Assembly (NCBI RefSeq): GCF_000013405.1
Contig: NC_007759.1
Span: 1,737,001 to 1,801,000 of the forward strand
Direction of reading: 5' to 3'
Origin: Syntrophus aciditrophicus SB
GTDB taxonomy: Bacteria > Desulfobacterota > Syntrophia > Syntrophales > Syntrophaceae
Length of the DNA: 64,000 bases
Shown here: positions 27,799 through 49,735 of the stretch, one piece after another
Numbering within the stretch: position 1 is the first letter of the stretch
Layout: the number at the start of each line of letters is the position of its first letter
Position numbers and translations under genes: made by a program
The notes under the pieces: generated by a model
Seen by the model: the letters and a program-made list of their open reading frames with translations, nothing else
Database searches by the model: none
Told to the model about the DNA's origin: nothing

Positions 27799-27847
27799 TG
27801 TTGAATTTCAACGAGGCATAATCTCGATTTTTACTGATTTCCAACCA

Positions 27848-30922: not shown

Positions 30923-32310
30923 AAGCGATCACGACGATCCTTTTCATCCTCGCGGTCGGCTGCCTCGCGATTTATGCCATATGCATATACATTTCCGCCT
31001 TGTGTAAATCACGAAATCCCGGAATATCTTCCTTAAAGGAAAAACGGGAGATCGCCCTGGAGGGTCTTGCGGTGATCTGGACACAAAGGCAGAAGGAGGA
31101 ATCATCCCCCAAAAAAGACGAAGGCGAAGCAAGAAAAGAACCGGAAAAGAAACAGAGTGGAACTCATACGCCCGACACCGTCTCTTTCCGCGATCCGGAT
31201 TTGAACACATTTTACATCGAAAATGTACGCAATAAGGCTGGGTTCCCTCACGGGGCGAGACAGGTTGCCGAGGGTATCCTGGAGATCTTGGACAGGGAAG
31301 GAGATTGTCCCTCGGTTGTCAATACCCACGGGGAGATTGAGGCCAGCATGGAAATGGGCGCTTACAACCGCCTGGCCCGGGTCACCTTGCGCGAGCACGC
31401 CTTTGACACGGCCAGGGAGATGCTTTGCCTGATCGATCCCGGTCCGATGACGCCCATGGCAATCATCGCCGCCCTCGGCCATGACCTCGGAAAGATCCCC
31501 GCTTACAGGCAACATCTCTACTCCCTGGGGGACCATCCGGTCATCAGTGTTACCATCCTGGACAAGATCCCTGGATTCTCCGAGATGCCCAACAGGGGGG
31601 ATATCATCACGGCCATCCGGGACCATCACCGCAAGCCCATCGATTTCTTCTCGATCAAGCTCAAGGAGGCCGATCAGGAGGCAAGGAAAAAGGAACTCGC
31701 ACGAAACTTCTCCCTCGGAGATACCAGAACTGGCCGGGAATCAACCTCTCGGGAAGAAGAGCCGCCCAAACGGGCTGCTTCAGCCGGCAGAGAGACAATT
31801 TTCTGGGATGACGAGAACAAGACAGAAGGCAGAAAGAGAAAAGGGAAACCCAAGGAGGTCGAAATTCCCTGGTACAACGGAAAAGCTATCCTTCAGGAAA
31901 TCGCCGGACGCATCAACAAGGTTGATGAGGGTCGGTGGGAGGCCTTCTCTATGGTGAACGGGTACGTCTACATCCAGGTCGGCCTCCTGTGGTCGGTCGC
32001 CAAGAAGGTGGCACGGATGAATGGCGATCCATCCGTTTTGATCGCGGACACCGACGATGAGTTGAGAGCGAATATCCTCTACTCCATCGTGGAGCGGCTC
32101 AAGACGGAGGAGAACGCGATCGCGCGGGGGCTCATTCGCGACGGATACTTCAGCGCACCCTTCGTAGTCAGTATGCAGGACGGGACGGTCCATTCCAAGG
32201 CGTCATACGTGCCGTTCAACCTTGAAGCTTTCGGGATGCTCACCTCGGAACTGGAGTCTCAAAAATACGGCAAGGTAAGAGAAATCGTCGATGTCACGCC
32301 GAAGTGGTGA
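30919..32310 (+). CDS. Membrane-anchored HD-domain phosphohydrolase-like protein
   Basis: A 463-residue protein with one N-terminal membrane span (about residues 5-27), then a Lys/Glu-rich linker and an HD domain: REHAFDTAREM (H160), AALGHDLGKIP (H188, D189), DHPVIS (H206) and IRDHHRKP (H236/H237). A charged linker (about 245-325) and a C-terminal domain of about 140 residues follow. MOBH relaxases also contain an HD-type domain, but the MOBH histidine pattern upstream is not seen here. Its place after traD makes it a candidate for relaxosome or nucleotide signalling; the substrate is unknown. Confidence 0.7.
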   Translation: MKAITTILFILAVGCLAIYAICIYISALCKSRNPGISSLKEKREIALEGLAVIWTQRQKEESSPKKDEGEARKEPEKKQSGTHTPDTVSFRDPDLNTFYIENVRNKAGFPHGARQVAEGILEILDREGDCPSVVNTHGEIEASMEMGAYNRLARVTLREHAFDTAREMLCLIDPGPMTPMAIIAALGHDLGKIPAYRQHLYSLGDHPVISVTILDKIPGFSEMPNRGDIITAIRDHHRKPIDFFSIKLKEADQEARKKELARNFSLGDTRTGRESTSREEEPPKRAASAGRETIFWDDENKTEGRKRKGKPKEVEIPWYNGKAILQEIAGRINKVDEGRWEAFSMVNGYVYIQVGLLWSVAKKVARMNGDPSVLIADTDDELRANILYSIVERLKTEENAIARGLIRDGYFSAPFVVSMQDGTVHSKASYVPFNLEAFGMLTSELESQKYGKVREIVDVTPKW

Positions 32311-32667
32311 AATATTTGCGTTGATTTCAGTGCGATACCCCGAACCTATAGTAAATATACAATATTTGAAAAGCTCTTTCACCTACGACTAAAGGAATTT
32401 CTGTGTGGACTTCAAATGCGGATCACCACTTGTACTGTTAAATTTTGTTTCAGGGGAAATTGGCCATTAGCTGCAAGGATAGCAGTAAGAATGTAATCGA
32501 GGAAGTCTCCGGATGTTAGCACAGCAATGACCACGGTGGGGATATGATCATTTCCTAATGAAGTCCTTTTGGACCACTCAAGGGAAGCTCGGCCCAAAGC
32601 TATATGAAACAACCCTCAACCAATTGGAATCAATAATTTCGCCTATCCCATAAGAGAACAATTTTCA
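32311..32667. other. Intergenic region of 357 bp with a possible gene remnant
   Basis: AT-rich sequence between the HD gene and the ABC-F gene (convergent). The minus strand 32412-32612 could encode 66 residues (LEWSKRTSLGNDHIPTVVIAVLTS then GDFLDYILTAILAANGQ) that look like a protein fold but match no family I know and have no ribosome site. It may be a remnant of a lost gene. No promoter or terminator stands out. Confidence 0.4.
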
Positions 32668-34173
32668 CTACAAAATCTGCAAATAAAAGAAACCTTCTGA
32701 TGCCGGTTTATGACTGATTCGCCATTCCTTTTCGGTAAGTTTTTCCAGAAAACGGCGATCGTGGCTGACGAGCAATAAACAACACGGACAGTCAGCCAAT
32801 GCAGCCTCCAGGCATTCGATGGACGGCAGATCCATATGATTCGTTGGTTCGTCCATAATTATGATGTGTGGTTTGTGTGTCATGCCGAGCGCCAGGAGCA
32901 GTTTGCGTGCTTCGCCGGGGCTGGGCTCCATGCTTTCCAGAAGCCGATACGGGCGCGATCCCAGACGACTGACAATTGTCATTAGATGTCCCAATTGCTC
33001 ATGAGGCAAGTTCTGCGCCTGGATCAAGATGTCACGGCATTGCTGTGCATCGATTTCCTGCGGCACGTACGTGACCTGCTGAGGTGGAGCATTAAGCAGC
33101 GGCAAAAGGTTTCGCAGCAAGGTGCTCTTTCCGCCACCGTTCGGACCGGTAAGAGCAAGGCGATCGGTGGGCCGCAATACCAACTGGGGACACATCAGCT
33201 TCTTCTGACCGCCAAGCGGCACAGTGTGCGGCGGAAGGTTGAGCAATACATCCCGCCTGGATACTGAACTAGGCAGCCAAATGCCAACTGAATATTGCTT
33301 TGTGACACGAATGCTTTCTAATTCATCCTGCAGATGGGCGAGCCGTCCGTCCAATTGCCTCAGCAGCTTGCCACCAATGGCGTCTTTACCTGTTACACGT
33401 GCCCCATTAATCTTTGCTTTCGCATCGTGATCGTGCTTGGCGATTCCTCTTTTCGATAACTTGCTGTGATTGGCAAGATCTCGACGACGCCTGGCCTCGT
33501 ACCGTAATTTTTTGAGCGCGTTTTTTCTGGTCTCATATTTTCTTCGGAGCGTTAGATCTTCCTCTGCCGCCAGGCCAGTTCCCTTTGAATACCCGCCGGG
33601 ACGCACCACCACAATAGGCGGTTGGATAAAGGCGCATTGTATGCAAAGGGAATCGAGCAATTCGCGATCATGGCTGACAAGTAAGCCCACACCCTTGAAT
33701 GTGCGCAGTGACTGAATCAGAATGTCCCGTGCCTCGGCATCTACGTGGTTAGTCGGCTCGTCTAACGCCAGCATGTCAGCATCAAGCCAAAAAGCCACGG
33801 CGACCTGCGCCCGCTTACGTTCGCCGTGCGAGAGCGTCGACCACCGGTTGAGCCAGTCCCCCTTAGCGCCGAATTGCTCTTTGATCAAAGAAGCCTTTTT
33901 CGAAAAATCCTGAAACAACTCAACAAAATGTTCCGGCGGATTGTCGGTGCGCTGAGGACAATAAACGATCCGTTCGGGGCCGACCACAACACCGGCATCC
34001 GGCGAAAGCAAACCGGTTGCTAATTTCAAGAAGGTGGTTTTGCCAGCACCGTTCGCACCAACGATGCCAGTCCATCCTGTAGAAATATGAACGGATATGT
34101 CTTTGAATAGCGGATCTATCGCGGTATCATATCCGAAGACAACCTGCTGAAATCTCAAAAATGGTTGAGGCAT
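32668..34173 (-). CDS. ABC-F family ATPase, possible ribosome-protection protein
   Basis: A 501-residue protein with two ABC domains and no membrane segments. Domain 1: Walker A GANGAGKTT, signature LSHGERKRAQVA, Walker B LALDEPTNHVD. A basic linker of about 90 residues follows (RKYETRKNALKKLRYEARRR). Domain 2: Walker A GPNGGGKST, signature SPGEARKLLLA, Walker B IIMDEPTNHMD. ABC-F proteins act on the ribosome; those of this length include antibiotic-resistance proteins (Msr/Vga/Lsa types) that dislodge drugs. Resistance here is inferred. Strand, codon style and leader mark it as inserted cargo between two element modules. Confidence 0.88.
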   Translation of the reverse strand: MPQPFLRFQQVVFGYDTAIDPLFKDISVHISTGWTGIVGANGAGKTTFLKLATGLLSPDAGVVVGPERIVYCPQRTDNPPEHFVELFQDFSKKASLIKEQFGAKGDWLNRWSTLSHGERKRAQVAVAFWLDADMLALDEPTNHVDAEARDILIQSLRTFKGVGLLVSHDRELLDSLCIQCAFIQPPIVVVRPGGYSKGTGLAAEEDLTLRRKYETRKNALKKLRYEARRRRDLANHSKLSKRGIAKHDHDAKAKINGARVTGKDAIGGKLLRQLDGRLAHLQDELESIRVTKQYSVGIWLPSSVSRRDVLLNLPPHTVPLGGQKKLMCPQLVLRPTDRLALTGPNGGGKSTLLRNLLPLLNAPPQQVTYVPQEIDAQQCRDILIQAQNLPHEQLGHLMTIVSRLGSRPYRLLESMEPSPGEARKLLLALGMTHKPHIIIMDEPTNHMDLPSIECLEAALADCPCCLLLVSHDRRFLEKLTEKEWRISHKPASEGFFYLQIL

Positions 34174-34233
34174 TTGATTCCATCCATTTCTGCCACGGTA
34201 CCCGCTCGTGTTTTTTTCTTTCCATTGAAAACA

Positions 34234-34263
34234 AAAAGGCCACGGAGCGCTCCGTGGCCTTTT
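34234..34263 (-). terminator. Perfect 30-bp palindrome with T-run in the ABC-F leader
   Basis: AAAAGGCCACGGAGC is followed directly by its reverse complement. Read on the minus strand, the hairpin is followed by TTTTTGTTTT, an intrinsic terminator lying 60 bp before the ABC-F start. The candidate promoter is directly upstream, so the terminator would interrupt the ABC-F leader. On the plus strand it has a shorter T-run. A role as attenuator is inferred. Confidence 0.7.
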
Positions 34264-34278
34264 GTAGGCTATACCTTG

Positions 34279-34306
34279 ATGATATAAAATCCAGTGCCAC
34301 GGTCAA
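34279..34306 (-). promoter_or_regulatory. Candidate promoter of the ABC-F gene
   Basis: On the minus strand, TTGACC (34301-34306), a 16-bp spacer and TATCAT (34279-34284). Transcription would start near 34272, just before the hairpin at 34234-34263. Confidence 0.5.
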
Positions 34307-34722
34307 GATAAAGTAAGAAACCAATTATTGACGCAGGCTAGTAATATCCCATCATTCCGGTGGAACGATCGGCAACCAACGTCAACTATTCTGTTCCTTA
34401 TTATCTTTTCACGCCTGTGACATCTTTCTAGGTTCTTCTTTTCATTATTATCAGTGTATTATCGAATTTGAAAGAAAAAAATGACAAAATCCTCACGGGT
34501 AAGATATGGGAAAAAGGCAGCATCTCATCAGAAGTACTGTTTGAAATATTGCCTCCCTGAAAAAATGTTCGAACACTAACTTTCAGGAAGCTGTTGCGGA
34601 CACTTACCAGTTTACCTATAGGATCGAGATACCAAATAATTTTAGGATCTCAAATCATCCAAGTTGCCGAAATCACACCGCGTTACTGCGTCAATCTGCT
34701 GCCTTCCAGAAACTTCCCGCCC
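34307..34722. other. Intergenic region of about 415 bp without recognised gene
   Basis: AT-rich sequence between the ABC-F promoter and promoter copy 3. The only structure seen is a hairpin with CCTGAAA (34556-34562) and TTTCAGG (34581-34587) arms around the palindrome TGTTCGAACA (34566-34575). No reading frame looks coding. Confidence 0.4.
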
Positions 34723-34751
34723 AAAATCCCTGCATCGAAAACATTATATAT
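34723..34751 (+). promoter_or_regulatory. 29-bp promoter/operator element, copy 3 (membrane-protein operon)
   Basis: Identical over 29 bp to 1904-1932 and 27848-27876; copies 1 and 3 also share the next three bases (CAG). The first gene starts 33 bp downstream (34785), the shortest distance of the three. Confidence 0.7.
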
Positions 34752-34784
34752 CAGGAGAACTATGTAAAAAAGGGATGCCCGGTC

Positions 34785-35033
34785 ATGGACTTTCTGGAAT
34801 TCCTGAACCCGCTCAGGTACTTTTCCCACGAGGGATACCAGTCCTTCTGGCGGACGCTCTTCGCCACTATCCTCCAGGGATTCTGGGCGAGGTTCTTCGC
34901 TGCCTCTTTCCTCTTCCTTGCCTTCTGGTTCGGTGTGCGGAAGCAGCGGTTCCAACTCGGCATTGCCTACTTCGTGATATCGGTCGTAATCACTTACGGG
35001 GCCACAGTCGTGAGATTCCTGGGGTTCAGGTAA
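34785..35033 (+). CDS. Small membrane protein, first gene of promoter-copy-3 operon
   Basis: An 82-residue protein with two hydrophobic segments (about residues 22-48 and 58-78; FFAASFLFLAFWFGVRKQ and AYFVISVVITYGATVV). No signal peptide and no recognised family. The start is the ATG after AAAAAAGGGATGCCCGGTC, a moderate ribosome site. It is 13 bp from the next gene. Since it is controlled by the same promoter element as the transfer operons, a role in transfer or exclusion is possible. Confidence 0.6.
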   Translation: MDFLEFLNPLRYFSHEGYQSFWRTLFATILQGFWARFFAASFLFLAFWFGVRKQRFQLGIAYFVISVVITYGATVVRFLGFR

Positions 35034-35046
35034 AAAGGAAGCGTTT

Positions 35047-35751
35047 ATGCCGGGCGGAAGCGGAACGGTTGTCATCACGAGTGGCGGCGGGGAGTCGAAG
35101 CCTAAGGGGATTATCGACGCCCTGTCCGAAATCGAAAAATTCTCCGCCATGGACAGGAAGGGAAGCGAGATCCCGGAGCGGTTTTTCACAACCAAGAACC
35201 GGATCGAGTACTTCGAGGCGGGTTTCAAGGGCTCCCTGGTAAGCGGACTCGTTAGCGCCCTCCTCGCCCCTATGGCGATCGGGGTACTGGAAAAACTGAT
35301 CCCGGTGTTCGGGGAGGCGGAGCCGACGACATTCGACAAAGGTTTCGTCTTCCTGATCGCGCTCAGCTTCAGCATCGGCTACGCCGTTTTCATCGGGGGC
35401 ATGGGAAGATACTACGCCGGGAGATTCACCCGGGTCATGATCCGGAGCTTCGTGAGCGGGACGATCGTCGGGGCGATCCTGAAGATGGTCCTGGCTTTCA
35501 TCCTGTTCCACTTCCTGTACCTGGTCGTCCTGACTGATGGGAGGATCGCGGCGTTTCTCTCGATATTCCGCTCCTGGGTCGCGCCGGGGACGCTGGAGAA
35601 TGTTTACGGCTGGATCGTCGAGTTCAAGCCGGTTCTCCTCATATCGGCCTGGTTCATCGTGCTCACGACCGTGATCTTCATCATGGTCCCGGTGTTCAGC
35701 ATCGGGATCGCTTTATACAGGGAACGAAAAACATCTCTCAAGGAGGAATGA
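35047..35751 (+). CDS. Polytopic membrane protein of unknown function
   Basis: A 234-residue protein. A polar N-terminal domain of about 65 residues (SGGGESKPKGIIDAL) is followed by about four membrane spans (SLVSGLVSALLAPMAIGVL, FVFLIALSFSIGYAVFIGG, VGAILKMVLAFILFHFLYLV, LLISAWFIVLTTVIFIM). The tail is short and basic. No family recognised. It is 3 bp from the next gene, so the three genes 34785-36099 form one operon. Its membrane domain could complement the TraD-like ATPase, which lacks one, but this is only a possibility. Confidence 0.65.
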   Translation: MPGGSGTVVITSGGGESKPKGIIDALSEIEKFSAMDRKGSEIPERFFTTKNRIEYFEAGFKGSLVSGLVSALLAPMAIGVLEKLIPVFGEAEPTTFDKGFVFLIALSFSIGYAVFIGGMGRYYAGRFTRVMIRSFVSGTIVGAILKMVLAFILFHFLYLVVLTDGRIAAFLSIFRSWVAPGTLENVYGWIVEFKPVLLISAWFIVLTTVIFIMVPVFSIGIALYRERKTSLKEE

Positions 35752-35754
35752 CGC

Positions 35755-36099
35755 ATGGAAGAGCAAAACCGGTTGACCGACCGAATCGAAAGGAAAGTCT
35801 CCCTGGCCAGGGAGCGGGATACAAGGGTCATCATCACCAGGACTTCCGATACCCACCGGGTCCTCGACATCGTGAGGAGCGCCGACAAGGCTATCCGCAT
35901 CCTGAGAAACGGACTCCTGATCCGCTTCACGACCCCGGAGGTACTTCCCCTCTTGGAAGACTACCAGAAAGCGGTCGAGGGGTTGAACCGGATCGCCGCC
36001 CGGATTTGCGAGAAGGCCGGGGTGCCCTACCGCCCTCCCAAGGGAATGGAGAATCGGGAGGACGGCGCCGACGCCGAGGAGAAGGGCAAAAAGAAGTAA
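35755..36099 (+). CDS. Small charged protein of unknown function
   Basis: A 114-residue soluble protein, rich in Arg, Lys and Glu, predicted helical (RERDTRVIITRTSDTHRVLD, EDYQKAVEGLNRIAARICE), with a flexible Lys/Asp/Glu tail. AAGGAGGAATGACGC precedes the ATG. No family recognised. It ends the operon; a GC-rich hairpin (36103-36119) follows immediately. Confidence 0.6.
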   Translation: MEEQNRLTDRIERKVSLARERDTRVIITRTSDTHRVLDIVRSADKAIRILRNGLLIRFTTPEVLPLLEDYQKAVEGLNRIAARICEKAGVPYRPPKGMENREDGADAEEKGKKK

Positions 36100-36446
36100 A
36101 TTTCCCGGTCGTTCCGGGATACGAAATATTTTTATTAATCTCCCTAAAGGAGAACCCCCTTCCGGGGCCGAACTCATCCGTAACCAGCCGGATGTTTCAA
36201 ACTGCCGGGCACGGCAGGGAGTCGAGTAAGCGATCAAATGATAATTGTCACAGGGGGTGGTCTGCCTGGTTTCAGGAGCCGATCCTTTTTGTGAAACCTC
36301 GTGTGGAGTAACGGGAAAGTTTCCCGGAATCTTCGACTTTAACGAAAACTGAATACATCAAGAAGCTAGAAGGTCTGCCGTTGGGAAAACGCCTGGCCTT
36401 TTTTGTTTTCAAAGACCTGAACGTAAAAAGGAAAGGAGGACAGGAG
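36100..36446 (+). other. Structured intergenic region with several hairpins and a terminator-like element
   Basis: 347 bp without a gene. It holds TCCCGG/CCGGGA (36103-36119), CTGCCG/CGGCAG with a 4-base loop (36202-36217), a 15-bp palindrome CGGGAAA-G-TTTCCCG (36312-36326), and an imperfect stem (36373-36399) followed by a T-run (36400-36410). The TTTCCCGG motif recurs at 36101 and 36320. The last stem ends 36 bp before the next ATG, so it may act as an attenuator or close the previous operon. Confidence 0.45.
36373..36410 (+). terminator. Intrinsic terminator or attenuator upstream of 36447
   Basis: GGTCTGCCGTT and AACGCCTGGCC form an imperfect stem with a 5-base loop (two mismatches), followed by TTTTTTGTTTT. 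It lies directly upstream of the ribosome site of the gene at 36447. Confidence 0.5.
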
Positions 36447-36845
36447 ATGAAAGCGTTGAGCGGAAAGGCGCGGGAGGTCATGGACCTCCTGACAAAAGGA
36501 CTCCACGTCGAAGGACATCGCGTTTTCGATAACGCGAAAGGCGCCTACATGGCGGTCCACGTTGAGAAGCTCCGACTGACGGAGCAGGAAGCGCTTTACA
36601 GCGTTGCCCACTACTTCGAACAGAACGGCGATCTCATGCGGGATCCGGACATGGAGTTCATGAAGATCGGGGATGACTACTACCCTGTCTACTTCCGCCA
36701 GGACGGCGGCGTCGCCCTCGAACAGGAGGCGGTCGTCTATGGACCCGGCGGGAAGATCGAGCGGTATTACCCGAAACTGCAGGCCGACTTGGCGGCGTTC
36801 GCCGATCGGTGGATGAGAAACATCAAGGAACAGCAAAAAATTTAA
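36447..36845 (+). CDS. DUF6908-like small protein
   Basis: A 132-residue protein; start chosen at ATG 36447 because AAAGGAGGACAGGAG precedes it. The segments MRDPDMEFMKIGDDYYPVYFRQDGG and VVYGPGGKIERYYPKLQADLAAFADRWM resemble proteins annotated DUF6908 in mobile elements; the match is by eye and uncertain. No signal peptide. It heads a run of three small genes that lead into the amidoligase cassette. Confidence 0.6.
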   Translation: MKALSGKAREVMDLLTKGLHVEGHRVFDNAKGAYMAVHVEKLRLTEQEALYSVAHYFEQNGDLMRDPDMEFMKIGDDYYPVYFRQDGGVALEQEAVVYGPGGKIERYYPKLQADLAAFADRWMRNIKEQQKI

Positions 36846-36860
36846 GAAAGGAGAAAGGCA

Positions 36861-37037
36861 ATGAAGAACATCGAGATGAAAGTGGAAGGTGAAATTCTGA
36901 CGATCAGGATCAACCTGGCGGAGGATTTCGGGGCGAGCAGGACCGGCAAGACCCGGATCATCGCCTCCACCGAGGGGAACAAGCCCGTGGAGGGGAAACC
37001 GGGAATCTACGTCGGCGTCAACTGCTACAAAAAGTAA
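36861..37037 (+). CDS. Short protein of unknown function (58 residues)
   Basis: A 58-residue reading frame with a good AGAAAGGAGAAAGGCA ribosome site 15 bp after the previous stop. The protein starts KNIEMKVEGEILTIRINL and contains a Lys/Arg-rich middle (GASRTGKTRIIASTEGN) and ends VNCYKK. It looks like a small beta-rich fold of the type found in many phage and plasmid gene clusters; no function known. The short intergenic gaps and ribosome site support that it is translated. Confidence 0.65.
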   Translation: MKNIEMKVEGEILTIRINLAEDFGASRTGKTRIIASTEGNKPVEGKPGIYVGVNCYKK

Positions 37038-37075
37038 GTCGATCAACCAACAAAAATCATGAAAGGAGAAGAACG

Positions 37076-37426
37076 ATGAAAGACGAAAAAAACACGAACG
37101 AGACGGAAAAGGGACTGGGTTTCGACGCCGAGGACATGTTCGGCCGAGAGGAAGACACCGCAGGAGAATTTTCTCCCGGTGGTTTCACCAGGGGGAAGTT
37201 CCGCAAGGTTTTCATCAGCGCCGTCAAAAGGGACGGCACGGCAATCCGGGTCAAGGATCGGTGGTACGAGATCACCGACAGGACCAAGAACGAGGCCGGC
37301 GAACTGGTGAAGGGCATGGAGATCAACCTCTACTATGCCACGGGCGAGAAGAAGAACTTCGCCAACGCGATTTACCCGGTCGCAGAGGCGCTCGCTCCCG
37401 CCGGCGAAATGGTTCCCGTAATGTAA
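37076..37426 (+). CDS. Small protein with OB-like C-terminal half
   Basis: A 116-residue protein. The first 45 residues are acidic and probably unstructured (GLGFDAEDMFGREEDTAGE). The second half (KFRKVFISAVKRDGTAIRV then EITDRTKNEAGELVKGMEI) looks like a small beta-barrel of OB type. Ribosome site GAAAGGAGAAG precedes the ATG. Function unknown. It is followed by the hairpin-rich leader of the amidoligase gene. Confidence 0.6.
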   Translation: MKDEKNTNETEKGLGFDAEDMFGREEDTAGEFSPGGFTRGKFRKVFISAVKRDGTAIRVKDRWYEITDRTKNEAGELVKGMEINLYYATGEKKNFANAIYPVAEALAPAGEMVPVM

Positions 37427-37467
37427 GCGGAAATAAAAAGCAAGTCCCCCGGCATCGCTGGGATGAA

Positions 37468-37543
37468 CCCTGACGAAACAATCAGGGCATGCAGTCTCCA
37501 GCGGTCGAGGGAAACCCCTCTTCCTCCGGACGGCTGCATGCCC
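37468..37543 (+). promoter_or_regulatory. Alternative hairpins in the leader of the amidoligase gene
   Basis: Hairpin A: CCCTGA (37468-37473) with TCAGGG (37482-37487). Hairpin B: GGGCATGCAG (37485-37494) with CTGCATGCCC (37534-37543), a perfect 10-bp stem that also encloses GAGGG/CCCTC (37507-37520). Both need the same GGG (37485-37487), so they exclude each other. Hairpin B ends two bases before the AAGGAGG ribosome site of 37557. A translational or transcriptional switch is inferred. Confidence 0.5.
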
Positions 37544-37556
37544 GAAGGAGGAAAAT

Positions 37557-39302
37557 ATGCCAGACTCAAGAAGCGCGGAAGCAGCGGAATATAACTCCCG
37601 GGCGGGACTTCCCGCCGGGGATGAAACGTCAAGTCAATGTCTCCCGGAGAGGTCCTGCCACGGATGTGGACTGATCCTCGGAAGGGAGACGATCGAGTGC
37701 CCCTCCTGCGGGGCCATCAACCTGGACCGGAAGCGCCTGCGGCATCAAGACAACCGGCCTGGCCGGGAGATCGCCCAGAGCGTCACGTCCGCCAATTACA
37801 ACGGCAAGTACAACATCTACCGCAACTCCGACGGCAGCTATTCATGCAACTGCCTTTCCTTCCTTCGCCAGAAGGAGGTCCGAAACGGGCACGGATTCGC
37901 GGCCTGCAAGCATATCCAAGAATACCTGAATCAAAATCCCATGGAAGTTTTAAAAGATCCCCCCAAGCCGACCGACTGGCAGCTGATCGCCATGAAGCGG
38001 CTCGGGGTCGAGTGCTCCGAGCACCTCACGGACGCCCAGGCGTACTTCATCTTCCGCGACATGCTCAACAAGCAGGGCGTGGAATACCGGGAATACGAAG
38101 AGCTCCTGAAGGAGCACGGCACCGTGAGTCTCCTTCCTATCTATTCCTTCGGAGTGGAGTTCGAGGGCTTTGTCCGGAGCTCCCACGGCATCGAGGGGCT
38201 CGGTCGTAGCCTCACGGACGCGGGGATCTCGACCGTGAGCCTCGGCTACACACACGCGCTCATGAACGAGTGGAAGATCGTTCCCGACAGCTCGGTCAAC
38301 GGGCTCGCCGGGTACTCGCCACTGGAGCTCGTCACGCCGAAACTCTTCGGCGCCTACGGATTCCAGCTGCTCAGGAAGGCCCTCGACGCCTGGAAAGAGG
38401 CGGGGGCCGGCGTAAACGCATCCTGCGGGACTCACGTCCACATCGACGCCTACAACTGGGACCGGCGGGACATGCTGGAACTGGCCAAAATCTGGGCCAA
38501 AATCGAGAGCAAGGTGGTCTGGGGCCTCGTTTCCCCCTCCAGGAGAAACAACTCCTATTGCCGTCCCGTGGACCGCGAGTATCTGAAACAGCTCGCTTCC
38601 TACGGGGCGACCCACCTTGACCGTTACCACAGCCTGAATCTCTCGTCGTACGGTCTCTACCACACCGTCGAGTTCAGGATCCATAACGGCACCTATGAAG
38701 CGAAGAAGATCATCCCCTGGATCGTTTTTCTCCTCAAGCTGACGGATTCCGTCAAGAGGGGGCTCACGCACGGGGCTTTGACCGACCTGTCGATCGACGG
38801 CGTCCTGGACGCGATCGGGCTCAACCGCTCGGCGACTTCCCTCCTCAGGGAGGCCCGGGAATACCTGGTATCCAGGTTCCAATACTGGACAAGGGACGCC
38901 GAGACCAACCCGTCGCACGCCTGGACGAACCATGAGATCGACCTGGACGGCATCGAGGAGGAAGTCAGGTATGACGGCGCCCTAAGGCGCTATCACCAGG
39001 AAAGGAGAACGCCCGCGGCATCGGAAGACCCGGCGCTGCCGGCAAACTCCGTTATGAATCTCGCGGGCCGCATCCCGTCGGCATCTCTCTCCGACAGCGA
39101 GCTCATCCACGGGTTGGTGAGCAGTTCCTGGGAGGTGCGGAGTCGGAGAAGCGAATTGATCCACGTCGTCATTCTCAACCCAGACGACACGCTTACCTGC
39201 ACCTGCCGGACGTTCCGATCGAACAAGCACTGCCTCCATACCGTCAACATTGCTAGGTTCCTGACGGCACTCAGGCGGGAAACCGGCGCGGCAGGGAGGT
39301 AG
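37557..39302 (+). CDS. Amidoligase (COOH-NH2 ligase) flanked by zinc ribbon and two SWIM fingers
   Basis: A 581-residue protein. An N-terminal zinc ribbon (C34/C37/C48/C51, CHGCG and CPSCG) precedes SWIM finger 1 (C97, C99, C117, H119: YSCNCLSF and FAACKHIQEYL). The catalytic region spans about 195-400: YSFGVEFEGF (E201, E203), EWKIVPDSSVNG, LELVTP (E257), SCGTHVHIDA (C290, H293, H295) and HTVEFRIHNGTYE (E372, R374), the pattern of amidoligase_2 proteins with the glutamine synthetase-like fold. SWIM finger 2 lies at C548/C550/C559/H561. Amidoligases use ATP to join an amine to a carboxylate. The substrate is not known. A GAT-II gene starts 3 bp downstream. Confidence 0.85.
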   Translation: MPDSRSAEAAEYNSRAGLPAGDETSSQCLPERSCHGCGLILGRETIECPSCGAINLDRKRLRHQDNRPGREIAQSVTSANYNGKYNIYRNSDGSYSCNCLSFLRQKEVRNGHGFAACKHIQEYLNQNPMEVLKDPPKPTDWQLIAMKRLGVECSEHLTDAQAYFIFRDMLNKQGVEYREYEELLKEHGTVSLLPIYSFGVEFEGFVRSSHGIEGLGRSLTDAGISTVSLGYTHALMNEWKIVPDSSVNGLAGYSPLELVTPKLFGAYGFQLLRKALDAWKEAGAGVNASCGTHVHIDAYNWDRRDMLELAKIWAKIESKVVWGLVSPSRRNNSYCRPVDREYLKQLASYGATHLDRYHSLNLSSYGLYHTVEFRIHNGTYEAKKIIPWIVFLLKLTDSVKRGLTHGALTDLSIDGVLDAIGLNRSATSLLREAREYLVSRFQYWTRDAETNPSHAWTNHEIDLDGIEEEVRYDGALRRYHQERRTPAASEDPALPANSVMNLAGRIPSASLSDSELIHGLVSSSWEVRSRRSELIHVVILNPDDTLTCTCRTFRSNKHCLHTVNIARFLTALRRETGAAGR

Positions 39303-39305
39303 GCT

Positions 39306-40253
39306 ATGTGCGGAATATTCGGGTTCACGGGACATTCCTCATGGAAGACCTCCGTCCTCCTGCAGGCGCTCTGCATCGCCGACGAGGTGAGAGGGCAACA
39401 TTCCACGGGGCTCGTCGTCCAGACGTCGACCAGTGATTTTTTCATGTCCAAGAAGGCCCTGCGGGGCAAGGCTTTCGTCGCCAGGGGGCATTGCGCCTTC
39501 CTCTTCAACAGGAAGTACGGTAACGCCCTCGGGCACAACCGCTTCGCGACAGCCGGGGCCGTGAACGATCGCAACGCCCATCCCTTCGCCGTCAAGGTCG
39601 GCGCCGGGAAGTGGAATTTCGGCGTTCACAACGGCATCGTCGGCGACAAGGAAGTGATCGCCAGGGATTACGGCGTCCGGAACCACGACGTGGATTCGGC
39701 CGTCGCTCTCGGGGCGATCGGGAAACTTCAGCTCCAGGGATACGAAGTGATCGACGCCATCGAGGAGGTCACGAATTTCATCTCCCCGAGGGCGGACTTC
39801 GCCTTCGCGTACCTGAACGGCTTCGAGAAGGCGGTCTACCTCTGGAGATCCCCGGACAGGCCGCTCACGGTCATTGACGCAAGGCGGCTTAATCTGGGTC
39901 GCTGGTTCTGCTCAACGCCGGAGATATTCAAGGACGCCTGGAACATCCTCCGGGGCGCCCTGGGCGATCTCAGAAAGGTCTCCAAGTTCGAAGCGGTGCC
40001 TTACCGGTTGTACCGAGTCGCCGATGACGGGGAGTTCGAAGTGGAGCCGGTCCGCGAGCTCAAGCACACGAGCAGGCTCGCCTGGGGCGAAGGCGTCGAA
40101 AGTATTTTCGACCAGGAGATCCCGGGCGGAGCACGCCGGCATCGCGGGAGTCGGCATTCAAGCAGTAATCAGCGGGGTCTTTTCGGGAACGAGAATTCTG
40201 ACGTTTTCCAGGGCCGGATCGATTACCGGCCGAAAGGAGAGATTGAATTATGA
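39306..40253 (+). CDS. Class II glutamine amidotransferase (GAT-II, Ntn-type)
   Basis: A 315-residue protein. The catalytic cysteine is residue 2 (MCGIFGF) and becomes N-terminal after Met removal. Other GAT-II motifs: EVRGQHSTGL (RGxxSxG), GHNRFATAGA, VHNGIVGD (HNG) and HDVDSAVAL. The enzyme hydrolyses glutamine and delivers ammonia, here most likely to the amidoligase encoded just upstream (3-bp gap). The last about 60 residues (RRHRGSRHSSSNQRG) are basic and likely flexible. It overlaps the acetyltransferase gene by 4 bp. Confidence 0.92.
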   Translation: MCGIFGFTGHSSWKTSVLLQALCIADEVRGQHSTGLVVQTSTSDFFMSKKALRGKAFVARGHCAFLFNRKYGNALGHNRFATAGAVNDRNAHPFAVKVGAGKWNFGVHNGIVGDKEVIARDYGVRNHDVDSAVALGAIGKLQLQGYEVIDAIEEVTNFISPRADFAFAYLNGFEKAVYLWRSPDRPLTVIDARRLNLGRWFCSTPEIFKDAWNILRGALGDLRKVSKFEAVPYRLYRVADDGEFEVEPVRELKHTSRLAWGEGVESIFDQEIPGGARRHRGSRHSSSNQRGLFGNENSDVFQGRIDYRPKGEIEL

Positions 40254-40660
40254 AGCTTCTATTCAAGAAAGTAATCAAGAGGGCGACCATCTTCCGGATC
40301 AGGGAGATCATCGAGGGATATCACTCCCTCGCCGTATTCGAGGGCCGCTATTACGTCACGCTTAAGGACGGCAGGATAGCGGGCTGCGTCTCCTTGGTGG
40401 AGCGAGGATGGTACATGACGGAAATAAAGCACCTGTTCGTCAAGGAAGAATATAGGGCAAGCGGGGTTGGCAGGTTCCTTCTGGAGGAAGCCCTGAAAAA
40501 GGTCTTCACTCCCCTGGTCTGTTGCACCGTTCGATCGGACAACAAGAGAAGCGCTGACCTTTTTCTGAAGAACTCCTTCGACATCATGGGCACCTTTCAG
40601 AATTCCATGACGGACCGGGAGATTTTCCTCATGGTGAGAAACTTGCAGCAAAAGGAGTGA
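40250..40660 (+). CDS. GNAT-family N-acetyltransferase
   Basis: A 136-residue protein. Motif A (HLFVKEEYRASGVGRFLLEEAL) contains the acetyl-CoA pyrophosphate loop (R-x-x-G-x-G/A type). C-terminal strand segments (VCCTVRSDNKRSADLFLKNSF) agree with GNAT motif B. The start overlaps the GAT-II stop as ATGA. It could acetylate the amine or the product of the amidoligase pathway, but the substrate is unknown. A strong terminator follows. Confidence 0.9.
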   Translation: MKLLFKKVIKRATIFRIREIIEGYHSLAVFEGRYYVTLKDGRIAGCVSLVERGWYMTEIKHLFVKEEYRASGVGRFLLEEALKKVFTPLVCCTVRSDNKRSADLFLKNSFDIMGTFQNSMTDREIFLMVRNLQQKE

Positions 40661-40675
40661 GTCAGTATCAACCCG

Positions 40676-40699
40676 GGGGCGGCCATGCCGCCCCTTTTT
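40676..40699 (+). terminator. Intrinsic terminator after the amidoligase cassette
   Basis: GGGGCGGC, loop CAT, GCCGCCCC, then TTTTT. It closes the operon ending at 40660. Confidence 0.9.
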
Positions 40700-40803
40700 G
40701 CATTGCCCCAAAAAAGATATAGCCGGAAAATGCTGATCTCTGTCAGAAAAATCGCCTTCGTCTTAGCGACAAAAAAATTGGGGTTCCTTTTAACTTTTTT
40801 CTT

Positions 40804-40823
40804 GCATATGTTATATCATATGC
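40804..40823 (+). promoter_or_regulatory. Palindrome and promoter before the XRE gene
   Basis: GCATATG-TTATAT-CATATGC is a perfect inverted repeat inside a possible promoter (TTGCAT at 40803-40808 and TATAAG at 40826-40831, 17-bp spacer). It is a natural candidate for XRE autoregulation. Confidence 0.55.
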
Positions 40824-40876
40824 TATATAAGACCACTTAGCTAAGAGACGAACCAAATTTGTGAGAGGAAACTCGC

Positions 40877-41104
40877 TTGTGGGTTAATAATTATAATTAC
40901 GTGGTTCTTGTAAAAGAAGTCCGCGTTCAACTAGGCCTGAGCCAAGAGGATCTGGCTCGGGAGTTAGGGGTCAGTTACGCCACCATCAATAGGTGGGAAA
41001 ATGGGCGGTTCTCGCCTTCCAGATTAGCCGTAATGCAACTTGAGACTTATTGCGACAGGATGATTGGACTGGAGAGACTGGTTCTACCCGGATATAAAAA
41101 ATAA
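40877..41104 (+). CDS. XRE-family DNA-binding protein
   Basis: A 75-residue protein that is essentially one XRE helix-turn-helix (VRVQLGLSQEDLARELGVS, YATINRWENGRFSPSRLA). The TTG start is 7 bases after GAGAGGAA. It is complete, with a short Leu-rich C-terminal helix. It lies 27 bp from the left end of the IS21 element. A palindrome in its promoter suggests self-regulation. Its target elsewhere is not known; RSH and stress genes start just behind the insertion element. Confidence 0.85.
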   Translation: MWVNNYNYVVLVKEVRVQLGLSQEDLARELGVSYATINRWENGRFSPSRLAVMQLETYCDRMIGLERLVLPGYKK

Positions 41105-41127
41105 GAAAAATCCAATAAAAAAGTTGA

Positions 41128-41131
41128 CATA
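41128..41131. repeat. Left target-site duplication CATA of the IS21-family element
   Basis: CATA occurs directly outside both terminal repeats (41128-41131 and 43668-43671). Confidence 0.75.
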
Positions 41132-41169
41132 TGTCAAGTATCACGTTATTTCACCCCCCCGGTATCACA

Positions 41170-41937
41170 TTAATTCACCCCCCTGGAGGTAGAGGGTGAT
41201 ATTTTGGGTTTGAGAATCCGCCTGTACGAGTCTCCTTCCGTGATCAAGTGGTGAGCGTTGTGGGCCAGCCTGTCGAGGGCGGAATTGGCCATGACAGGAT
41301 CGGGGAAAAGGGGTAGCCAATCCTGAGGCGGCCTGTTGCTTGTGATGATGATGGAAGACCTGAGATAGCGCTCCGCAATGATCTCGTAGAAGTCTTCCGC
41401 CTGCAGTGGGTTCAGAGCGGACAGCCCAAAATCATCTATGATGAGCAGGTCGGGAGCGAGATATCTTTTCATCCGCTTCTCCCAGGATTGATCGGCCCGC
41501 CCCGCCAGCAGGACGCGGAAGAGCTTCACTGCTTTTGTAAAGAGGACATCATGACCGAGGCGGCAGGCGTGGTGGCCGATGGCCTGAGCGATATGAGTTT
41601 TTCCGACGCCGGAGGGGCCGCACAGAAGAACGTGCTCGTGCTTTTCGATAAAGGTGCATCGGCACAGGTCCCGGACCACTTTGGCGCTTATCTTGGGGTT
41701 GAAGGAGAAATCGAACCCTTCGAGGGTCTTCTCTTCTTCGAAACAGGCCCGGCAGATGCGCAGGTTGAGCTTTTTGGCCTCCCGGCGTTCCACCTCGTCC
41801 TGCAGGAGTACTTGAAGGAACTCGAGGTAGCCCAGGGAGTCCTTTTGAGCCTGCTGGAGCCTCAGGTCGAGGCTCTCGAGAAAGCCGCTCAGACGCAACG
41901 TTCGCAGCTGTTCTTTGAGCTGGTGGTCTAGGTTCAT
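41170..41937 (-). CDS. istB: IstB ATP-binding helper of IS21-family transposition
   Basis: Start placed at ATG 41937, which overlaps the istA stop (ATGA). The 255-residue protein has the IS21 IstB layout: an N-terminal helical part with RLQQAQKDSLGYLEFLQVLLQDEVERR, Walker A GPSGVGKTHIA and Walker B LLIIDDFGL. The family is an AAA+ ATPase that assists IstA. Final residues run to a stop 38 bp inside the left IS end. Confidence 0.95.
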   Translation of the reverse strand: MNLDHQLKEQLRTLRLSGFLESLDLRLQQAQKDSLGYLEFLQVLLQDEVERREAKKLNLRICRACFEEEKTLEGFDFSFNPKISAKVVRDLCRCTFIEKHEHVLLCGPSGVGKTHIAQAIGHHACRLGHDVLFTKAVKLFRVLLAGRADQSWEKRMKRYLAPDLLIIDDFGLSALNPLQAEDFYEIIAERYLRSSIIITSNRPPQDWLPLFPDPVMANSALDRLAHNAHHLITEGDSYRRILKPKISPSTSRGVN

Positions 41938-43514
41938 GGGAGCACCTCCGTCTTGGAGGTGAAGTAATCGGCGGGACGCAAAAAGCTTTTTCCCAACTCG
42001 GACAGCTCGAGGCGGACCTGCTCCACGGGCTCCTGTGGGGGCTTCCAACCGTTTTCCAGGATGGCCTTGATGCTGCGGTAACGGAAGTTGCCGAAAAAGA
42101 GCGATCTCTCAGCCGCCGACTCCATGGCCGCGCTGCCGTACTTTTTGGCCAGCCTCAGAACCGCTTGCGCCTTGCGAAGGTTGCGCATGGCGTGGTCGCC
42201 CAGGATGCTGCGGACCAGGGCCTCCGTCTGGGGACCGATCTGGGCCGCCTGGCCTCGGCAATAAGTCGGGGCCGCCATGAGATAGGCGAGCTTATCCGGC
42301 GGATAATCCGACTGATCGGTCACGAAGGTCCCCGGGACAAAAGAGCGGTTATGGGTCTTGATCAGCTGTCCATCGAGAAAAACATGAACCTGGCGGCAGC
42401 CGCCCCGCACCCAGACCTGCCTGCCGATGAAGCGGGTCGGCAGGGAGTAATAAGAGCGGTCGAAAACGACATGGTGATCGGGATGCACCGTACAGGCCTT
42501 CCACAGGGGGATGTCGAACGCTTCGGCGGGAAGCGCTTTCAAACAAGAGGCCTCCTCGTTCTGGAAGACCTCGAAGGGGCGCCGCTTGGTGGTGCCGTGA
42601 ATCTGCATGCCGATCTGCTCCTTGCACCACAGGAGAGCCTTTTCGTTGGCCTCTTCGATATCCCGAAAATCCCTGCCCGCCAGGAGCTGCCCACGGACGA
42701 CCGGCACCAGCCTCTCCACTTTTCCCTTGTGTTTGGCCTCTCTTACCTTGGCAGGGTCGGCGACAAACCCGTAATGCCTCTCCATCTCGGCATAGGCCCG
42801 GTTCAGGGTGGGGTCGTAGATATCCGGCTTGATCACTCCCGATTTGAGATTATCAAGGACCACGGTGGCGGGGCAGCCGTTAAAAAAGGCGAAGGCCCTC
42901 TCGTGGCAGTCAATCCAGGTCCTCACGTCCATGTGGAAGACAAAACGGACATACCGGTGGCGGCTGTAGGAGAGCACCATGATAAACGCCCAGGCCTTGC
43001 GCAGCCGTCCGCCCGGCGCTTCTCTCATCATCCCCGCAGAGCCAAAATCCACCTGGGCCTGGCTGCCCGGCTCCACTTCGATCCTCACCGTGACGACAGG
43101 AGCGCACCAGTGGAACTCGCTGCGCAGGTACCGCAGCATCGTGCAGTAGCCGATCCGCCGCTCAGTCTTCTCTTCAAAAAGACGCCAGATCTGCTTGGCG
43201 TCAATCTTCTTGCCTTTGTGCAGAAGCTCGGCAATCCAGTCTCTATGAGGCGCGATCAGCGCCCGCGCCGGCGTTGTCCTCAAAAAAGAAGCCTCCCCGG
43301 CCGCTTGGAGCTTCTGCGCAAGCTCCTCCTCGGGGGGGAAGGGGGTTCCCCGTGCCACGCCGGCAACTTGAGCGAGCCGGATATACTTGCGCACGGTGTT
43401 GCGGTCAAATCCCAGGGAGCGCTCGATCTGTTTGAAGCCGGCTCCCTGATGCCACTGAAAAATCATCTCGACAATCTCGTTCATCGTTACCTGCCTCCTG
43501 GACACCGATACCAT
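41934..43514 (-). CDS. istA: IstA transposase of the IS21-family element
   Basis: A 526-residue DDE transposase. An N-terminal helix-turn-helix region (FDRNTVRKYIRLA) is followed by the DDE core: QAQVDFGSAG (first D), TVVLDNLKSGV (second D) and the KGKVERLVP region (E). Start could be ATG 43514 or 43484 (second Met). The coding direction is opposite to the flanking element genes. A nearly 500-codon frame on the plus strand over this gene is a composition artefact. Confidence 0.95.
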   Translation of the reverse strand: MVSVSRRQVTMNEIVEMIFQWHQGAGFKQIERSLGFDRNTVRKYIRLAQVAGVARGTPFPPEEELAQKLQAAGEASFLRTTPARALIAPHRDWIAELLHKGKKIDAKQIWRLFEEKTERRIGYCTMLRYLRSEFHWCAPVVTVRIEVEPGSQAQVDFGSAGMMREAPGGRLRKAWAFIMVLSYSRHRYVRFVFHMDVRTWIDCHERAFAFFNGCPATVVLDNLKSGVIKPDIYDPTLNRAYAEMERHYGFVADPAKVREAKHKGKVERLVPVVRGQLLAGRDFRDIEEANEKALLWCKEQIGMQIHGTTKRRPFEVFQNEEASCLKALPAEAFDIPLWKACTVHPDHHVVFDRSYYSLPTRFIGRQVWVRGGCRQVHVFLDGQLIKTHNRSFVPGTFVTDQSDYPPDKLAYLMAAPTYCRGQAAQIGPQTEALVRSILGDHAMRNLRKAQAVLRLAKKYGSAAMESAAERSLFFGNFRYRSIKAILENGWKPPQEPVEQVRLELSELGKSFLRPADYFTSKTEVLP

Positions 43515-43667
43515 CCTCCTTGTCTGAACGTGATAAATCGACGGCAGGATATATCGGTTTATTGTTTGTCTCTACCCGGATGCAGGGGGTGAATTAAATG
43601 ATACTGGGGGGTGATATGAGTTGATACTGAACCCCTCCAGGGGGGTGAATTATCATGATACTCGACA

Positions 43668-43671
43668 CATA
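43668..43671. repeat. Right target-site duplication CATA of the IS21-family element
   Basis: Matches 41128-41131 on the other side of the element. Confidence 0.75.
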
Positions 43672-43696
43672 TTGTTGATCCTTAGAATTTCGAGCA

Positions 43697-45202
43697 ATGG
43701 GACGAGATACTCAGGTATTGGCTTGTGGCAGCCTATTTATTGAAAAAATCGAAAATACCTACACGGCAAAAGATGCCAACCTCTTAAAAAAGGCATACGC
43801 CTTTTCAAGACAGCGAGAATCCGACTGCGATTCATCATCTTTCAAGGCCGCTGAATTGCTCATTGAGCAGGGGGCGGATGGCGAAACTGTTGCGTGTGCC
43901 CTGGTAGCCCCCCATTTTTGGCAAGGCCGCGTTAAACCAGAGGAAATTCGGGAACACGTCAGTCAAGATGTAGCCGATACACTCGCATATCTCAAACAAC
44001 CCTTCAGCCTCCGTATCGATACCGAAATCCATCGGCGCAAGGATATTAATGCTCTCCTAGTGTCCATGTCCGAGACGCCCCGCGCGGCCATTCTTCTTAT
44101 CGTTTTCCGTCTAATAGAATTGGAAACGACGCTTGAATCCCAAGGAAAGAATCCATGCCATATGGCGCAGGAAACGCTTCATTTCTATGTGCCAATCGCG
44201 GATCGGTTAAGCCTTGGCGAGATGCGCCGCCGTCTTGAAGATGTTTGCTTTCGCATTTTGCATCCCTTTCAGTATGAAAAACTGAAGCAGGACGTGACTC
44301 CGATTCAGTCCGAAGATGAGAAGTGTCTGGAGATACTGATTGAAGGCGTCAAACGTCTGTTGGACAAGAACCGCATTCATGCGGAAGTTCACGGTCGCGC
44401 AAAGAGCCTTTATAGCATCCACCTGAAGATGACCCTAAAGGGAACGGCGCTGGAGGACATCATGGATCGCATCGGACTGCGAATCATCGTCTCGTCCGTG
44501 CCCGAATGCTATGCTGTACTCGGACTGCTGCATACCCATTTCAAACCGATTCCCGGAACCTTTGACGATTACATCGGACTTCCCAAGGATAATGGCTACC
44601 AGTCTCTGCACACCTGTGTCTACCCAATGCGAGAGGTCACCCATAAACCGATTGAGTTCCAGGTGCGGACCGAACTTATGCACATGGAAGCTGAGCACGG
44701 CTCGGCTGCGCATTGGCTCTATAAAAGTGCTGTCGCTATGGGAAAAGACTCCCTCAAAAACCAATGGTTGAAGGGGCTCGTGCGCCGGCATGACCAGGCA
44801 AAGAGCACCGATGCGTTTATTGAACTTTTACGCCGTCAGGTTTGCGAGGATCACATGGTGGTTTTCGGCAAGGGCGGCAGAATCACCCGCTTGCCCGACA
44901 AAGCCACCGTTCTCGAATATCTGGATGCCGCCAATTTCTTTGCTTCACGGAGCAGTGTCGTAAAGGTGAATGGAAAATTAGCCAGCTTAGATCAAACCCT
45001 CCGGGATGGAGATTCCATTGAGATCGTTGACTGCGAAGATTCTGCCAGTCCAGGTACAGTTGTTGATGACATGGGGGACATAATCGGACAGCATAAAGCG
45101 TCACCCATGAACACGGAAGGTTGCAAGGTCTGGGCCACAGCGCAAGGATCTATTTTGAGACATAAAGAGGAGAACAGCCATGCCTCAACAGAAGGTCCAT
45201 GA
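43697..45202 (+). CDS. RelA/SpoT-like (p)ppGpp synthetase with degenerate hydrolase domain
   Basis: A 501-residue protein. The HD hydrolase region is recognisable but has lost its key residues: the HD-x-x-ED motif is replaced by APHFWQ. The synthetase domain is well kept: HGRAKSLYSIHLKM, EDIMDRIGLRIIV (D), GLPKDNGYQSLHTCVYP and EFQVRTELMHMEAEHGSAAHW (E). A TGS domain follows (MVVFGKGGRITRLPDKATV). It lacks the ACT/zinc-finger C-terminus. It probably makes but cannot degrade the alarmone. It lies 30 bp from the IS element and overlaps the next gene by 23 bp. Confidence 0.85.
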   Translation: MGRDTQVLACGSLFIEKIENTYTAKDANLLKKAYAFSRQRESDCDSSSFKAAELLIEQGADGETVACALVAPHFWQGRVKPEEIREHVSQDVADTLAYLKQPFSLRIDTEIHRRKDINALLVSMSETPRAAILLIVFRLIELETTLESQGKNPCHMAQETLHFYVPIADRLSLGEMRRRLEDVCFRILHPFQYEKLKQDVTPIQSEDEKCLEILIEGVKRLLDKNRIHAEVHGRAKSLYSIHLKMTLKGTALEDIMDRIGLRIIVSSVPECYAVLGLLHTHFKPIPGTFDDYIGLPKDNGYQSLHTCVYPMREVTHKPIEFQVRTELMHMEAEHGSAAHWLYKSAVAMGKDSLKNQWLKGLVRRHDQAKSTDAFIELLRRQVCEDHMVVFGKGGRITRLPDKATVLEYLDAANFFASRSSVVKVNGKLASLDQTLRDGDSIEIVDCEDSASPGTVVDDMGDIIGQHKASPMNTEGCKVWATAQGSILRHKEENSHASTEGP

Positions 45203-48550: not shown

Positions 48551-48580
48551 CTTCGATCTTGTAACTCTCCTGGAGATCCT

Positions 48581-49702: not shown

Positions 49703-49735
49703 GCGATCTTTATATTTAGTCTTCGGAGCAAAAAA

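Follow-up and report, generated by a model that had tools for sequence, protein, structure and literature searches.

Neighbourhoods in which an amidoligase gene stands beside a gene for a class II amidotransferase are spread over phages and islands, and are said, in papers citing it, to have been described by Iyer et al. 2009. Examples are genes 65 and 66 of Arthrobacter phage Ottawa and, in the part of its description drawn on here, open reading frames (ORFs) ORF23 and ORF25 of the LUZ24-like phage UFV-P2. In the portions of the literature examined, the function of such pairs is proposed rather than shown. The window analysed here, meaning the whole stretch of 64,000 nucleotides of Syntrophus aciditrophicus SB (NC_007759.1, positions 1,737,001 to 1,801,000, forward strand), contains an operon with the same ligase family and glutaminase type. 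To the known pairs it adds a putative zinc ribbon and SWIM-like modules in the ligase, a GNAT acetyltransferase as third gene, and an F-type conjugative element as carrier. The operon is real, selected and mobile. Its kind is known; its domain architecture and its third partner are unusual. It was tentatively read, at somewhat less than an even chance, as a small amidation operon whose zinc modules would guide the ligase to an intracellular macromolecule.

Other described systems differ further. Amidoligases of the same family are paired with a cyclotransferase (AIG2/GGCT) on mobile DNA, namely in Geobacillus phage GR1, Bacillus phage 055SW001 and, according to the part of its description consulted, Tn6164 of C. 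difficile. The examined stretches of GR1 and 055SW001 have no annotated glutaminase, and the cyclotransferase is found where the window has the GNAT. The housekeeping wall enzyme MurT/GatD, which has a Mur-ligase fold and another class of glutaminase, differs from the mobile-borne trio.

A ligase, a glutaminase and an acetyltransferase in one operon

The operon consists of three consecutive genes on the + strand, which are listed with the parts of the ligase.

37557..39302, + strand: amidoligase with zinc ribbon and SWIM-like modules, 581 aa (ribosome-binding site AAGGAGGA; PF12224, E 1.4e-42; invariant residues; glutamine synthetase superfamily fold)
38142..38741, + strand: amidoligase catalytic core, residues 196-395 (Pfam range; model confidence)
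37656..37709, + strand: putative zinc ribbon of the ligase, Cys 34, 37, 48 and 51 (sequence; Zn_ribbon_3 only E 0.18)
37845..37913, + strand: N-terminal SWIM-like motif of the ligase, C97-x-C99 ... C117-x-H119 (ligand conservation)
39165..39239, + strand: C-terminal SWIM-like motif of the ligase, C548-x-C550 ... C559-x-H561 (SWIM E 0.79, 9.8 bits, below cut-off)
39306..40253, + strand: class II glutamine amidotransferase, 315 aa, N-terminal MCGIFG, no synthase domain (profile and fold matches)
40250..40660, + strand: GNAT acetyltransferase, 136 aa (Pfam profile; acetyl-CoA loop motif; 4-nt overlap)

The ligase and glutaminase genes are separated by exactly 3 nt, the glutaminase stop and the GNAT start share exactly 4 nt (ATGA), and a purine-rich ribosome-binding site precedes each gene (AAGGAGGA, GGGAGG and AAAGGAGAG, respectively). 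The original prediction had named a coupled cassette of an ATP-dependent amine-carboxylate ligase, an ammonia-supplying glutaminase and a GNAT on a conjugative element. Its coordinates, gap and overlap were exact, and the results below bear out all three gene assignments, with the ligase chemistry predicted from a model, as well as the carrier.

The ligase matched Pfam Amidoligase_2 (PF12224) with 146.7 bits against a cut-off of 22, and 13 columns were invariant in 32 sequences (F198, G199, E201, E203, D244, E257, G291, H293, H295, R356, N361, E372 and R374). This set contains an ExE pair (201/203), a GxHxH motif (291-295) and an E-x-R pair (372/374), and we take it to correspond to the way in which relatives of glutamine synthetase bind metal and ATP. 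The structure model had a predicted local distance difference test (pLDDT) of 72-93 in blocks of ten over residues 191-470. Foldseek placed type III glutamine synthetase (1.3e-4) and gamma-glutamylmethylamide synthetase (5.3e-4) at the top, and the depupylase Dop came fifth (1.8e-3). The VIA-align Z scores were 13.3 for 1tt4 (predicted glutathione synthase), 13.2 for a glutamine synthetase, 13.1 for YbdK and 12.2 for Dop, with matches spanning 217-227 residues at a root-mean-square deviation of 3.8-4.9; a sequence search of solved structures gave no convincing relative (best E 0.06). As modelled, the ligase is an Amidoligase_2 enzyme of the glutamine synthetase/YbdK/Dop fold, and ATP-dependent amide ligation is predicted from fold and family. 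The family signature is intact. A model short of ATP-binding geometry, named in the original prediction as a refuting finding, was not what this ligand-free model showed, its fold being that of ATP-using ligases.

For the glutaminase, GATase_6 matched at E 1.1e-5 and 25.9 bits, slightly below the cut-off of 27, and the N-terminal parts of NCBIfam glmS and purF matched at 2e-13 to 4e-10, far under the whole-protein cut-offs, as expected of a lone glutaminase domain. PHROG 4736 matched at 2.8e-26. In the fold search, the model (pLDDT 89-98 over residues 1-240 and <50 over 256-315) matched the GlmS glutaminase domain 1xff at 1.5e-12. Residues R79, N109, G110 and D130 were invariant in 18 of 18 sequences, and C2 was present in 16, the remaining two being gaps. 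C2 is presumably the catalytic cysteine, and R79, N109-G110 and D130 presumably form the glutamine site. Because the protein has no synthase domain of its own, the ligase is its likely partner. The glutaminase would split glutamine and pass the ammonia to the amidoligase, which would use ATP to turn a carboxylate into an acyl phosphate and form the amide from it; the chemistry of these two steps is considered quite likely.

A different division of labour is known from ergothioneine synthesis, where EgtC acts after EgtA as a gamma-glutamyl-removing hydrolase. Instead of supplying ammonia, the class II protein could similarly hydrolyse off a gamma-glutamyl mark that the ligase had attached, and the conserved C2, R79, N109, G110 and D130 would suit glutamine or a gamma-glutamyl amide equally. 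Such a write-and-erase pair is nevertheless improbable, as the nearest matches are the glutaminase domains of GlmS and PurF, and adjacency to a ligase is the usual glutaminase-synthase arrangement.

The third protein matched Acetyltransf_1 at E 4.7e-12 and 46.6 bits against a cut-off of 20.7. The acetyl-CoA loop motif of GNAT proteins, R/Q-x-x-G-x-G/A, is kept as RASGVG in the window and as RRQGIA in L085, a 36-kb IMG/VR contig with a trio in the same order.

Amidoligase neighbourhoods were profiled in 55 viral and 22 genomic loci, the latter comprising 20 of the 28 PF12224 matches outside the window's own genome and two from the ligase protein search. Four genomic loci with no ligase by profile (L059, L060, L061 and L069) were dropped, so that 18 were counted; the window and the related genome UBA6078 stand outside these counts. 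The ligase had a glutaminase within 3 kb in at least 19 of the 55 viral and at least 11 of the 18 genomic loci, a cyclotransferase at that distance in at least 3 and at least 8 (all eight also with a glutaminase), and a GNAT of the window type in 1 and 0, respectively; a third enzyme, where present, was thus mostly a cyclotransferase. The counts are lower bounds, because the profile misses the annotated Ottawa glutaminase and many loci are cut by contig ends. The general acetyltransferase family had a match in 9 of 50 viral records, and, L085 apart, the nearest lay 4-5 kb from the ligase. In operons of the L053 type, the glutaminase stop and the start of the cyclotransferase share 4 nt, which puts the cyclotransferase in the slot of the window's GNAT. 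No gamma-glutamyl cyclotransferase match was found in the window, its own genome (G000) or G039. Since the ligase-glutaminase pair itself is widespread, what sets the window's operon apart is the presence of zinc modules and of a GNAT in the cyclotransferase slot. In the portions of the literature searched, neither the trio nor an amidoligase with SWIM or other zinc modules was found described; Iyer et al. 2009 may describe zinc fusions, and no novelty in print is claimed.

In the proposed mechanism, the GNAT would acylate an amine of the same substrate or product, taking the place of the cyclotransferase of related operons. Gamma-glutamyl cyclotransferase acts on gamma-glutamyl amines, and its presence in those operons would also suit a small-molecule pathway, in which the ligase makes a gamma-glutamyl or other metabolite amide and the GNAT acetylates the product. 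The fold neighbours gamma-glutamylmethylamide synthetase and YbdK point the same way, as does the part of PMC10945688 consulted, where a phage gene set made up of an amidoligase, a glutaminase, a cyclotransferase and a glutathione synthase is given a proposed function in nitrogen and amino-acid metabolism. This pathway is considered rather unlikely: it leaves the zinc modules unexplained, Pfam recognised no further biosynthetic gene in the conserved block, and G000 and G039 have no cyclotransferase match.

Putative zinc modules and the proposed target

The zinc modules, identified here from motifs in the sequence, are absent from the original prediction. All four ligands of both SWIM-like motifs are kept between the window ligase and a homologue with 33% identity (L005/L020, on contig G015:C63), a SWIM-amidoligase-SWIM protein of 594 aa from which the zinc ribbon is absent and whose gene is followed by an ORF resembling a small lipoprotein. 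All four C-terminal ligands are invariant in the alignment, which includes L051 and L005. The C-terminal motif is absent from the L085 ligase, where the N-terminal motif is present. In L051, a locus on contig C3 of G432 (a 1.7-Mb genome of the phylum, 100% complete), a stand-alone ribbon-plus-SWIM gene (L051:10902-11183, 93 aa) matches window residues 34-124 at 8.7e-5, and its product matched SWIM (PF04434) at 8.2e-4.

The SWIM motif occurred six times in 80 amidoligase ORFs of other loci, compared with a mean of 0.2 (maximum 2) in 200 shuffles, and 10 times in 4,735 non-amidoligase ORFs. Four of the six occurrences were in L085, L051 and L020, which were preselected as close relatives, and two in L133 and L120. 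A tree of the core domains, which took 77 of 81 domains (four were dropped as duplicates or too short), placed the window, L085, L051 and L020 in one clade with support 0.99. Inside it, the window and L085 were joined with support 0.81, and the position of L051 (0.46) was not settled. The ligases of L133, L118, L120 and L138 were placed outside this clade, so the zinc modules were probably gained more than once. The viral amidoligase L133:7647-9242 has a SWIM-like module with a glutaminase nearby, and the viral amidoligases L118:7188-8654, L120:7446-8729 and L138:7167-8696 have CxxC-rich N-termini with a glutaminase near each.

SWIM and zinc-ribbon modules elsewhere act on intracellular proteins or nucleic acids. 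By analogy, the zinc ribbon and both SWIM-like modules would dock the ligase on a protein or nucleic acid, whose carboxyls would be amidated; a macromolecular target of this kind falls just short of an even chance. The pilus or surface protein originally suggested as a target drew no direct evidence, and the modules would fit a protein or nucleic acid inside the cell better. Whether fused or encoded by a separate gene, a targeting module would give a handle on the target, and the zinc modules could be used as bait.

Several observations weigh against this reading. Every SWIM profile match was under the Pfam cut-off (9.8 bits in the window, and 19.3 against 19.6 in the best homologue, the stand-alone G432 protein), and the L085 ligase had no SWIM match at E 0.5. 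The zinc regions (residues 1-117 and 553-563) were modelled at pLDDT <50, as was most of 485-521; with scores below cut-off and low model confidence, zinc binding rests on motif conservation. The macromolecular target leans on the roles of SWIM modules elsewhere. The G432 element is without a GNAT, and L020 shows neither a glutaminase nor a GNAT of the window type in the 20 kb retrieved; members of this ligase clade can therefore do without the GNAT.

If the target were nucleic acid or the relaxosome, SWIM would hold the ligase on DNA or on a DNA-bound transfer complex. There the ligase would install amide groups with ammonia from glutamine, the GNAT would add an acyl group, and the modification would shield the incoming conjugative element or phage from restriction. 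Mu momylation has a like effect with other enzymes. This version is thought very unlikely.

Modification of the cell envelope was also considered, in which amidated or cross-linked wall or surface material would make superinfection by phages or conjugative elements harder. Such genes are found on phages and on a conjugative element, and an envelope function is proposed for phage amidoligases such as that of phiEco32 in the parts of PMC10580990 and PMC11318856 that were consulted. Peptidoglycan amidation by S. aureus MurT/GatD is, in the partial account used here, a precedent for wall amidation by a glutaminase-fed ligase. An envelope role is still judged unlikely, as the phage proposal is itself comparative genomics, a zinc ribbon and SWIM would be unexpected in a wall enzyme, and none of the neighbours at 34785-41101 was recognised as a wall-synthesis gene in a Pfam scan.

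Conservation and linkage to transfer genes

Two copies of the trio, with all three genes intact in both, were found in UBA6078, a metagenome-assembled genome of Syntrophaceae. Window positions 34659-40699 match its contig C9 at 90.6%, with C9 flanks on both sides that have no window match, and C9 also matches the transfer genes at 19907-32308, mostly at 91-92%. Positions 36127-41132 match contig C8 at 96.8%; the C8 copy starts at the contig edge, so that no transfer genes were seen beside it. The nonsynonymous and synonymous rates (dN/dS) were 0.014/0.145 (C8) and 0.040/0.361 (C9) for the ligase, 0.031/0.123 and 0.061/0.466 for the glutaminase, and 0.016/0.107 and 0.045/0.262 for the GNAT. With ratios of about 0.09-0.25 across the three copies and intact frames, the trio is under purifying selection.

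The trio of L085 is the fourth. Its identities to the window are 39% (ligase), 49% (glutaminase) and 38% (GNAT), and its glutaminase and GNAT frames overlap. Chance adjacency of the trio is ruled out by the three intact co-conserved copies and this divergent one. L085 has MuA- and MuB-like genes, and the trio and a gene for single-stranded DNA-binding protein lie on the opposite side of a repressor from them; because the repressor separates the two, the trio may belong to a flanking replicon, and it is not claimed as part of a Mu-like phage. Among L085 ORFs, no match to the window or the compared related loci was found except the trio, frames overlapping it, and a generic match of the single-stranded DNA-binding protein.

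PF12224 has one copy in the window's own genome and is present in 26 of 395 genomes of a phylum sample, own included. The ligase protein matched 4 of 100 relatives (counting the window's own genome; one match covered the core only), and among 60 relatives of G432 the SWIM-type ligase was in G432 alone, with one further match to the core. Of 155 genomes of the class, 2 had the trio-type glutaminase, the window's own among them. Two other classes, sampled with 277 and 340 genomes (partly overlapping earlier samples), yielded no SWIM-spanning ligase; the matches listed there are confined to model positions 157-388 of 550. A search of 50,697 phage records with the GNAT gave nothing at 1e-5; in the viral scans, the glutaminase profile matched 4 loci and the GNAT profile 1, the only strong match being the L085 contig. 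A housekeeping role was rejected within this sample: none of the homologous trios encountered belonged to a housekeeping pathway, the other refuting finding named in the original prediction.

The F-type transfer genes TraN, TraH, TraG and TraD lie upstream of the trio. The element is on a one-contig genome of 3,179,300 bp, and these chromosomal conjugation genes are the basis for regarding it as a putative integrative and conjugative element. Further genes accompany the ligase-glutaminase pair in two elements.

34785..36099, + strand: small membrane protein, 234-aa membrane protein and 114-aa protein

Homologues of these proteins near the L051 ligase have identities of 42, 43 and 53%, the last being p35755. 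The two membrane genes are transfer-region genes: both were near a TraG homologue in 7 of 8 other loci, and in the eighth (L147) the larger was near TraD. The G432:C3 element resembles that of the window in its transfer genes (TraD 65% and HD 32% identity), ligase-SWIM (26%) and glutaminase (32%), with ligase, separate zinc module and glutaminase within about 9 kb of the transfer-gene homologues. It differs in its separate zinc gene, the missing GNAT and a gamma-glutamyl cyclotransferase about 8 kb from the ligase (L051:18383-18751; PF06094, 4.3e-27), the sole match in the G432 genome.

The larger membrane protein was found in 13 of 395 genomes, and an amidoligase as well only in G000 and G432. 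Plasmids pSD and pPRO1 carry the larger membrane protein, and neither is among the three plasmid records with a ligase match. The linkage in G432, set against most sampled relatives of the module, implies that the pair can travel with the transfer module but is usually absent. The tracking of transfer genes raised by the original prediction was thus seen in UBA6078 C9 and, for the pair, in G432, but not in most relatives. As the enzymes are linked to conjugation genes, components involved in transfer are a place to look for the substrate. The trio could alternatively be passenger cargo of no present use to the host, for which its absence from most sampled module relatives would speak; given that all three genes are under purifying selection and that the leader is better conserved than its neighbouring genes, this is disfavoured as extremely improbable.

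Leader, operon end and neighbouring regions

The following sites flank the coding region.

37485..37543, + strand: main leader hairpin, just 5' of the ribosome-binding site (folding, shuffles, conservation)
37468..37487, + strand: P1, possible short alternative leader hairpin (GGG, three bases, common to P1 and the main hairpin)
40675..40695, + strand: terminator-like hairpin at the operon end (9 pairs, 8 G-C, TTTTG)

The main hairpin has 59 nt, -41.7 kcal/mol and z -5.26, and 0 of 200 shuffles were as good. The gap before the ligase (130 nt) is identical to the L003 copy at 109 of 114 and to the L002 copy at 113 of 115 positions (first 20 columns excluded); in L003, the ligase gene is 90.4% and the gene before the gap 89.2% identical. 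A regulatory role of the leader is likely. P1 shows one compensatory G-C to A-U double change between the window and L003, a single event and weak evidence, and forcing it costs 0.5-1.6 kcal/mol over the minimum free energy in the three copies. The leader has one copy in the genome. An Rfam search of the window gave no match, a leader pattern was not found in viral contigs, and no similar fold lies 5' of the L051 or L085 ligase, so that its reading as a known riboswitch is unsupported; a strong hairpin upstream of the L051 ligase has a U-run and looks like a terminator. Four terminator-like sites were detected against 4.6 expected by chance; because this count is at chance level, the terminator argument rests on position and stem strength.

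An apparent frame break of DUF6908 in the L003 copy is probably due to an over-long start of the window ORF, and the L004 match at 1501-3243 lies on the other strand of L004. A variable slot was seen between the HD gene and the small membrane gene (32310-34659), occupied in the window by an ABC-ATPase gene with two ABC_tran stretches (32668-34173) and in C9 by approximately 21 kb without window match. A putative IS21-type element (41127-43672) with a 6-bp ACATAT duplication lies just after a small XRE gene and is absent from the C8 copy; its ORFs at 41170-42048 and 41934-43514 are presumably istB and istA. The cargo at 43697-53947 (RelA/SpoT-like protein, glycosyltransferase, GH130 phosphorylase, AAA ATPase, DnaJ and Cpn60 chaperonin) reads as a stress or chaperone island on the conjugative element, and the C8 element is 97% identical over 43667-51474 and 79% over 51996-55178. 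An AbiEi/AbiEii pair lies among the transfer genes (25048-26791), and a second AbiEii-like protein is encoded near the right edge (62296-63279).

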